From NCBI RefSeq assembly GCF_014199205.1, contig NZ_JACIJD010000003.1:62001-126000 (forward strand): a DNA stretch of 64,000 nt, given 5' to 3'. Source of the DNA: Muricoccus pecuniae. GTDB lineage: Bacteria; Pseudomonadota; Alphaproteobacteria; Acetobacterales; Acetobacteraceae. This document shows positions 44,976 to 47,094 of this stretch, piece by piece (within the stretch, counting starts at the first letter, position 1; each line of letters starts with the position of its first letter). Below the pieces are notes generated by a model. It was not told where the DNA came from, searched no databases, and saw only the letters and a list, made by a program, of their open reading frames with translations. The position numbers and the translations under genes were made by a program.

Positions 44976-45949
44976 GCGGCGGCACGCCTCTCGATGGCGC
45001 GGAGCCGAGCCGACCGCGCACGAAAATTTGATGATGACTCTGCCACGGATGGACGCAGAGCGGAGGGGGTCAACAAGGAAAATTCCGCCTGCGTCTCAAC
45101 TTTCTTGAGCGAGGCTGGATCGAATCGTGAAGCACCCGGTGCCCGGCCCGCCGCGTCGCGCATGAAGCGCTTCACGATGCGGTCCTCCAGCGAGTGGAAG
45201 GAGACGACGACGAGGCGCCCGCCCGGGGCCAGTAGCCGGATCGCCGCCGCCAGCCCGCGCTCCACCTCGCCCAGCTCGTCGTTCACCTTGAGGCGCAGGG
45301 CCTGGAAGCTGCGGGTCGCGCTGTCCATGCCGGAGGGATCGCGCGGCATCACCGCGTGGATCGCCTCGGCGAGCTGCATCGTCGTCTCGAAGGGGGCGTC
45401 GCCGCGCGCGGCCACGATCTTGCGGGCGATGCGGCGGGAGTGCCGCTCCTCGCCGAATTCCCATAGCAGATCCGCGATCTCCCGCTCGGGCAGGGTATTC
45501 ACCAGATCCGCCGCCGTGGGGCCCGACTTCTCCATCCGCATGTCGAGCGGCCCGTCCGCGCGGAGGGAGAAGCCGCGCTCGGCCTGGTCGATCTGGTAGG
45601 AGGAGACGCCGAGATCGAGCACCACGCCGTCCAGCGCATCCACCCCGCGCTCGGCCATGAGGGAGAGCATGTCGCCGAAGCGCCCCTCGACGAGGTGCAG
45701 GCGCCCGGGGAAGCGCGCGGCGAGGGAGGCGCCGCGGGCGATGGCGTCGGGGTCGCGGTCGATCGCGTAGAGGGTGCAGCCGGCAGCGGAGAGGATGGCG
45801 GCGCTGTAGCCGCCGCCGCCGAAGGTGCCGTCCAGATAGGCGGCGCCGTCGCGGGGGGCGAGCGTCGCCAGCACCTCGGCCAGCATCACCGGCACATGGC
45901 CGCCCTCGGTGGGGTCCGGGGCGACCATGGGGGAGGGAAGGCCGCTCAT
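44972..45949 (-). CDS. rsmH: 16S rRNA m4C1402 methyltransferase RsmH
   Basis: RsmH (MraW) methylates N4 of C1402 of 16S rRNA. The 325-aa product has [18 protein letters not shown] at the N-terminus, motif [51 protein letters not shown], and the C-terminal [18 protein letters not shown] 45949 overlaps the mraZ stop (ATGA). The end overlaps ftsL by 4 bp. Confidence 0.97.
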
Positions 45950-46410
45950 GCGCCACCCGCCGGGCGGGGGGCAGGAATGGTCAGGCCACGCTCGCGGGCG
46001 CGCTGGCGGGCGGCCTCGGCGCGCTGGCGGGCCGCCTCGGGCTCCCAGATCTGGAAGGAGCGGCCGGCCCCCATGAAGGTCACGGCCTCGGTCAGCCCGG
46101 CATGGGAGATCAGGTCCTCGGGCAGGACCACGCGGCCCTCGCCATCGGGGCGGAGCGGGAAGGCGTCGGCGAAGAGGCTGAGGGAGAGGTCGTCGAGCGC
46201 GTCGGAGAAGACGTCGAGCTGCTCGAGCCCCGCGGCCATGGTCTCGAAGGTCGGCAGCGGCCAGGCCTCCACGCAGGCATCGCGGTGGGAACGGCGCAGG
46301 ACGAGCTCCAGCGTGCCCAGGCGCTCCAGGGCACCGCGGAACGCGGCCGGGACGGACACGCGCCCCTTGCGATCCAGCTTGCCCGTGAAGGTGCCCATGA
46401 ACTGGGTCAT
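45946..46410 (-). CDS. mraZ: transcriptional regulator MraZ
   Basis: MraZ is an AbrB-fold DNA-binding protein that represses its own dcw operon. The 154-aa product has two SpoVT/AbrB-like repeats. The first is at about residues 5-50 ([19 protein letters not shown]) and the second near 80-125 ([18 protein letters not shown]), with [16 protein letters not shown] following. ATG 46410 starts [13 protein letters not shown]; an in-frame ATG four codons further in is also possible. It is the first gene of the cluster, preceded by a TGGG-repeat array that could be its operator. Confidence 0.95.
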
Positions 46411-46549
46411 CCGCTGGACGTCCGCCCCCTCGCGGTCGCACCGGGCGACTGTGGATCCCCTTAATCAGATGGCCGGCGAGGCCCCCCGACCCCGCCGGCT
46501 CACCCGACCATCCCGCCAGCCCCTCGCCCCCCTCAGGTCCGGGCCCTTG

Positions 46550-46583
46550 CGGGATGACGTGGGATAACATGGGTCGGAGTGGG
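46550..46583 (+). promoter_or_regulatory. candidate MraZ-binding array: GGG units with 10-bp period
   Basis: Four units lie exactly 10 bp apart on the plus strand: CGGGATGACG at 46550, TGGGATAACA at 46560, TGGGTCGGAG at 46570 and TGGGCCAACA at 46580. E. coli MraZ is known to bind direct TGGG-type repeats with 10-bp spacing. The array lies 140-173 bp upstream of the mraZ start. The repeats face away from mraZ (CCCA on its coding strand), so orientation needs comparison with proven sites. Confidence 0.6.
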
Positions 46584-46616
46584 CCAACAAGCATGATTGC
46601 AGCGCAAAGGCGAAGT

Positions 46617-46689
46617 GTTGCTGTTGAGCAACGCTCCACAATTCTGACCATTTCAATCGGTTATACGGGGAATCTGAGTCGGACTCAGA
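46617..46689. promoter_or_regulatory. two dyads between rnpB and mraZ
   Basis: GTTGCT at 46617-46622 pairs with AGCAAC at 46627-46632 across a 4-nt loop, and TCTGAGTC at 46673-46680 pairs with GACTCAGA at 46682-46689 around one central base. The latter lies 7 bp beyond the rnpB 3' end. On the minus strand its downstream sequence is TTCCCCGTATAA, so it could process or end the rnpB transcript. The interval is AT-rich relative to its surroundings and probably holds the dcw promoter, but no confident -10/-35 pair can be named. Confidence 0.45.
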
Positions 46690-46696
46690 GGAAATT

Positions 46697-47094
46697 GCCA
46701 GACGGCCTGTAAGCCGGGTTCTGTCAGCCCTTGCGGACCGGACGACCATTCCTCTGGAGTCCCCGTTGCCGGGGACTTCTCGCGGCCAACCCGGATGGCG
46801 GGGCGGGAAGCCCCTGGCGACGAGCCCTCGCGGGCTCTCTCCGGCCATCCCTATTCGGCCTTGCTCCCGGTGGGGTTTGCCGTGCCGCCCCTGTCGCCAG
46901 GGGCGCGGTGGGCTCTTACCCCACCGTTTCACCCTTGCCCGCAGCGCCTCTCGGCGGCGCGGGCGGTCTCTTCTCTGTGGCACTGTCCCTGGGGTCGCCC
47001 CCGCCGGCCGTTAGCCGGCACCGTTTTCCCATGGAGCCCGGACTTTCCTCCACCGCCCCTCTCGGGACTGGCAGCGGTCGTCCGGCCGTCTGGC
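46697..47094 (-). ncRNA. rnpB: RNase P RNA (class A)
   Basis: This is the catalytic RNA that matures tRNA 5' ends. Read on the minus strand it contains GAGGAAAGTCCGGGC (47050-47036) near the 5' end, AGGCCGAATAGGGATGGCC in the middle, GGTGGGGTAAGAGCCCACC, and ACAGAACCCGGCTTACAG (46724-46707) near the 3' end, all universal landmarks. The outer helix P1 is formed by GCCAGACGGCC (47094-47084) and GGCCGTCTGGC (46707-46697), fixing the ends at about 398 nt. The plus-strand reading frames over this region are not genes. Confidence 0.96.

Follow-up and report, generated by a model that had tools for sequence, protein, structure and literature searches.

Does an array of short repeats upstream of mraZ, written on the strand opposite to the gene, act as an operator for MraZ? 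Few bacterial loci are as conserved as the head of the dcw operon, whose control by MraZ has been worked out on repeats of one strand, downstream of the promoter. In the window (the whole 64,000-nucleotide stretch of the Muricoccus pecuniae contig NZ_JACIJD010000003.1 analyzed here), the preliminary description had pointed to four GGG units with a perfect 10-bp period upstream of mraZ, three TGGG and one CGGG in register, on the strand opposite to mraZ transcription. Direct reading of the sequence bore out each of these points, and the locus is laid out as follows.

46585 to 46590, minus strand: putative -35 element TTGTTG, at a spacing of 18 bp from the -10; most other alphaproteobacteria have TTGACG here.
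46580 to 46583, plus strand: TGGG unit 1 (CCCA on the mraZ strand), directly after the -35; from the sequence and column conservation in 125 alphaproteobacterial loci.
46570 to 46573, plus strand: TGGG unit 2, inside the promoter spacer; from the sequence and column conservation.
46561 to 46566, minus strand: putative -10 element TATCCC, extended by TG one base upstream.
46560 to 46563, plus strand: TGGG unit 3, overlapping the 3' half of the -10 (TATCCCA on the mraZ strand); from the sequence and column conservation.
46550 to 46553, plus strand: CGGG unit 4, at the predicted transcription start, doubling as the 5' strand of leader helix P0.
45946 to 46410, minus strand: mraZ (PF02381, 154 aa).

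The exact 10-bp period joins all four units over 46551 to 46583 of the plus strand, the last GGG (46551 to 46553) being preceded by C, and on the mraZ coding (minus) strand the array reads CCCACTCCGACCCATGTTATCCCACGTCATCCC. It lies about 140 bp from the start codon of mraZ, and rsmH (Methyltransf_5) comes next after mraZ. Three perfect units occurred once in the window, against 0.00 copies in 100 dinucleotide shuffles, and CCCA-N6-CCCA-N6-CCCA was found as a single copy in the 4,916,726-base genome, at mraZ, with 0 matches for the backward control. When two mismatches were allowed in the four-unit pattern, at least two matches appeared in 11 of 100 shuffles. Loose four-unit matches are thus not rare, and the significance rests on the exact register. 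The array shows what is generally seen in MraZ operators: at least three TGGG- or GTGG-type direct repeats at a 10-bp period, located at the mraZ promoter and occurring together with mraZ. The likeness to the E. coli spacing was also upheld: E. coli K-12 carries three TGGG units at the same period, but on the coding strand, and its MraZ operator at Pmra was reportedly described by Eraso et al. in 2014.

Two other features adjoin the locus. The RNase P RNA gene rnpB (46694 to 47093, minus strand) is the immediate upstream neighbor of mraZ and shares its strand, and in the accessible part of a report on Pelagibacter, RNase P RNA is likewise listed beside mraZ (PMC2704228). A 17-base near-perfect palindrome, TCTGAGTCGGACTCAGA, occupies 46673 to 46689 between rnpB and the mraZ promoter; by eye, it was not kept in relatives.

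The preliminary description had called for the array to be sought in relatives and its orientation recorded. For each strand of up to 450 bp upstream of mraZ, the highest-scoring set of three TGGG units spaced at a period of 10 gave the score (maximum, 12). The alphaproteobacterial set of 139 loci comprised 30 of 52 mraZ matches, 30 of 206 mraZ-bearing genomes, and 79 fetched loci, mostly one per family. The reverse score (CCCA on the coding strand) exceeded the forward score in 136 of them, reaching 12 in 94 and 11 in 24 (118 in total); the exceptions were one forward locus (L102) and two ties (L042 and L053). Among 80 named alphaproteobacterial loci, some from the same genomes as the 139, 77 were reverse, 1 was forward, and 2 were ties, and the closest named relatives belonged to Roseomonas. 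The comparison set of 46 non-alphaproteobacterial Pseudomonadota consisted of 30 of 73 matches minus L162 and L166, which were dropped after the script found no start codon, plus E. coli and 17 more. Here the forward array won in 44 of 46 loci (27 of 29 and 17 of 17), E. coli among them, and the two exceptions (L163 and L167) carry GTG-type forward repeats by eye. Judged from these sequence comparisons, the reversed arrangement is the rule in alphaproteobacteria, unlike in E. coli, and an MraZ-type array in reversed arrangement, which the preliminary description had put forward conditionally, is supported both by these counts and by the co-occurrence with mraZ given below. Our literature search brought up no account of a reversed MraZ array in alphaproteobacteria, though an earlier mention is possible. 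As a separate observation, L102 has a perfect forward TGGG triplet array together with a reversed array nearer the gene, 225 and 88 bp upstream of mraZ, respectively.

Column conservation was computed for 125 of the 139 alphaproteobacterial loci, those in which an anchor and full flanks were available. In these, the CCCA units fall at -17, -7, +3, and +13 relative to a conserved TAT (94 to 100%), which is preceded by a TG whose two bases are conserved at 98% and 88%. A TTGACG-like hexamer (5 of 6 bases) was searched for in the 199 of 219 loci having TA[T/A]CCC; it stood 17 bp from the TAT in 81 and 18 bp in 55 (136 of 199), at another spacing in 10, and was absent in 53. The alphaproteobacterial units thus fill a promoter-like core, TTGAC-N17/18-TATCCCA, of which unit 3 forms the end of the -10. 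A consensus scan of the region upstream of mraZ in the window found no promoter, because TATCCC lacks the last T. In Roseomonas, the transcription start is placed at a predicted position.

The exact core CCCATGNTATCCCA was present in 120 of 241 genomes of the class: among the 206 with a PF02381 match, 119 had it, as opposed to 1 among the 35 that had no such match (Fisher p 1.6e-10, uncorrected for kinship, a value that overstates independence since the genomes are related); 42% of the mraZ-bearing genomes were without the exact core. In the sole mraZ-less genome with the core (G054), reading the open reading frames of the surrounding 2.5 kb gave no mraZ-like frame, and the match had no TTGAC core. 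Four extra copies in mraZ-bearing genomes lay in contexts other than mraZ, one of them inside a long open reading frame, and look like chance matches. The exact core was found in 0 of 22 complete mraZ-less genomes and in 21 of 22 mraZ-bearing genomes, the latter a set picked for arrays already seen. Within the 139 alphaproteobacterial upstream regions, it stood on the coding strand in 85 and on the other strand in none. By these counts, the core is scarcely found outside mraZ-bearing genomes. The protein itself fits an operator of this kind: the D-x-K-G-R motif is kept in MraZ of the source genome, and the R of KGR, which is reportedly needed for DNA binding by E. coli MraZ, was invariant among seven aligned MraZ proteins. 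Solved MraZ structures exist, and our literature search found no footprint or gel shift for an alphaproteobacterial MraZ.

We therefore propose, with good but not complete confidence, that the array is a reversed MraZ operator for the protein's own dcw promoter and acts in autorepression by promoter occlusion, MraZ binding being predicted. The MraZ ring would bind consecutive helical turns on one face of the DNA and so cover the -35/-10 spacer, the -10, and the start point; a promoter covered in this way would exclude RNA polymerase, and MraZ would thereby limit its own operon. The transcript in Roseomonas and further genera of the family would then begin with a two-hairpin leader, the first helix of which uses unit 4, and this leader may act in mRNA stability or translation.

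The candidate leader was delineated between the array and mraZ, with the following parts.

46450 to 46556, minus strand: structured mraZ leader RNA with two hairpins and G-run loops, as matched by covariance model R2, which was trained on the window leader.
46550 to 46555, minus strand: 5' strand of helix P0, AUCCCG, from pairing and covariation.
46510 to 46515, minus strand: 3' strand of helix P0, CGGGAU, from pairing and covariation.
46518 to 46545, minus strand: hairpin H1, with a variable outer stem, an inner stem, and a G6 loop.
46472 to 46499, minus strand: hairpin H2, GCCGGCGGGG - UCGGGGGG - CCUCGCCGGC, with 98.8% of cells paired.

In Roseomonas, the minus strand shows strong conservation between unit 4 and 46450. 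The short leader word GGTCGGGYGAGCYGG (one mismatch) was discarded as a marker, being found in 47 of 60 genomes, the level of the control, and covariance models were adopted on account of this lack of specificity. Model R1, built from 21 loci, gave one match each in 42 of 200 genomes of the family (19 of 102 genera), and all 42 matches were followed, on the same strand and at no more than 700 nt, by an MraZ open reading frame. Model R2 gave one strong match and one at E 5.7 in its own genome; in 190 genomes of the class, it matched the window and, weakly, one locus outside the family (L334 of G071, E 0.006). When given 32 mraZ loci, it recovered all 8 of the Roseomonas type and, at E up to 1, none of the 24 from other alphaproteobacteria.

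The structure was supported by compensatory changes across genera. It was drawn by hand from a single sequence (L296), with slide and shuffle controls as a guard, and 11 of the 42 R1-matched loci were fetched only after it had been drawn. On an alignment of 33 leaders (A4; the near-duplicates L179, L284, L289, and L308 were left out), P0-P1a-P1b-P2 paired 91.1% of 939 cells, versus 32 to 50% when slid, and two-sided changes occurred in 19 of 29 pairs (52 such cells), a result reached by 0 of 500 shuffles. Helix P2 (H2) contained 35 G-U and 0 A-C cells, which places the RNA on the mraZ strand, and L132 carries a two-base insertion on both sides of H2. P0 covaries as well (UGCCCG/CGGGCA in L132, CACCCG/CGGGUG in L286, and AGCCCA/UGGGCU in L294). 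Of 37 leaders, 31 had P0 in their minimum-energy fold, and 5 of the 6 exceptions were anchoring errors of the script; the unit-4 anchor was set by hand for L294, L300, L301, L307, and L308. The fold of the window leader had a z of -5.2. RNAalifold alone recovered H2 and neither P0 nor H1, pairing the CCC of unit 4 with the G loop of H1 instead; this CCC could thus have alternative partners, CGGGAU (P0) or the G-run loop of H1.

A scan with Rfam 15 assigned the leader to no family, finding just RNase P and two eukaryotic matches far below the gathering scores. Among known structured RNAs, the mraW RNA motif of Actinobacteria stands at the head of the same operon, and it had no match in the Rfam scans of the window. 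Our literature search gave no description of a mraZ leader RNA of the Roseomonas type, though an earlier mention is possible. On comparative evidence, the leader is an uncatalogued, family-specific structured RNA at the head of the dcw operon message. A start 6 to 8 nt after TATCCC (46553 to 46555), if so used, would let the mRNA begin at P0. A 5'-terminal stem shields mRNA from 5'-dependent decay, and given the predicted start, P0 would shield the dcw mRNA in this manner. More speculatively, unit 4 might hold a dual code, as DNA for MraZ and as the RNA strand that sets the fate of the dcw mRNA, with the leader perhaps a switch coupling autoregulation to a second signal; we rate this as a rather doubtful possibility.

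Several other readings of the array were weighed against an MraZ operator. The array might be bound by another regulator, such as CenR, NtrX, or a nucleoid protein, and in the accessible part of the literature CenR and NtrX are reported to bind upstream of mraZ in R. sphaeroides (Rhodobacter), so that further regulators are at work in that region. However, the NtrX site reported there is GCAn9TGC rather than TGGG, and the array agrees with the MraZ repeats of E. coli and hardly occurs in genomes lacking mraZ, which makes this reading unlikely. Alternatively, the four G-tracts (G3-N7-G3-N7-G3-N7-G3) fit the G3N1-7 rule and could form a promoter-controlling DNA G-quadruplex, as proposed for S. 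aureus mraZ, where, in the accessible text, one was measured in the promoter and its conservation in other species was claimed (PMC11796246). Yet a quadruplex needs neither the T of TGGG nor the exact 10-bp phase, both of which are conserved, and all four CCC units were kept in just 61 of 125 alphaproteobacterial loci and three in 44. Selection on four G-tracts is not borne out by these counts, so that a quadruplex as the main function was rejected and the reading as a whole appears quite improbable. It is also hard to credit that the conserved letters reflect a promoter and the 5' strand of a leader RNA alone, with no repressor. TTGAC, TGnTAT, and unit 4 do have such roles, P0 using unit 4, but units 1 and 2 (CCCA at -17 and -7) keep the 10-bp phase and are present in alphaproteobacterial families without the leader RNA; to our knowledge, CCCA at these positions has no promoter role, which counts against this reading. 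Finally, a chance origin in a GC-rich intergenic stretch, for which the base composition of the region would speak, is practically inconceivable, being refuted by conservation in the alphaproteobacterial loci and opposed by the single genome copy and the 0 in 100 shuffles.

An MraZ operator thus remains the preferred reading, and the class-wide inversion and shift into the promoter core would mean that an operator can be flipped with its unit, period, and target unchanged. Such a flipped operator would let the encounter between a ring-shaped repressor and RNA polymerase be examined in a clean natural test. The leader RNA would be a new and testable control point for cell division genes, to be set against the statement, in the accessible part of PMC5089854, that long dcw leaders are exclusive to Rhodobacteraceae.

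According to the same source, UpsM is the 268-nt leader of the Rhodobacter dcw cluster, which has an intrinsic terminator and yields an sRNA (PMC5089854). The window leader shares with UpsM its nature as a long mraZ leader in an alphaproteobacterium; unlike UpsM, it is not of the attenuated type, no intrinsic terminator being found in 46411 to 46720. In family f23 (L313 to L315), the reversed array lies 282 to 322 bp upstream of mraZ with a palindrome in between, and the Rfam scan of these loci matched no known RNA family. By analogy with the available description of UpsM (PMC5089854), we infer that their leaders are UpsM-like and begin at the reversed array; MraZ may control an sRNA promoter in this family.

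As for the operator, the accessible parts of PMC8475190 and PMC7761207 describe MraZ as an autorepressor of its gene cluster in E. coli and M. genitalium and report repeated MraZ sites for E. coli, Mollicutes, and Burkholderia. In the B. cenocepacia case, MraZ binds 10-bp-period repeats at PmraBc; as far as the accessible text goes, PmraBc shares with the window array four repeats (7 nt plus a 3-nt spacer) at the promoter and differs in its GTG-type units, which lie downstream of the -10 over the start site (PMC7761207). E. coli Pmra likewise shares TGGG-type direct repeats at a 10-bp period, adjoining the promoter of an mraZ whose product has the KGR motif. There, TTGACA-17-TAAACT precedes the units, which are on the coding strand downstream of the -10 and hence of the promoter core, whereas those of the window lie on the opposite strand, inside the -35/-10 core. 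Compared with E. coli, the operator would thus be inverted and moved about 30 bp upstream.
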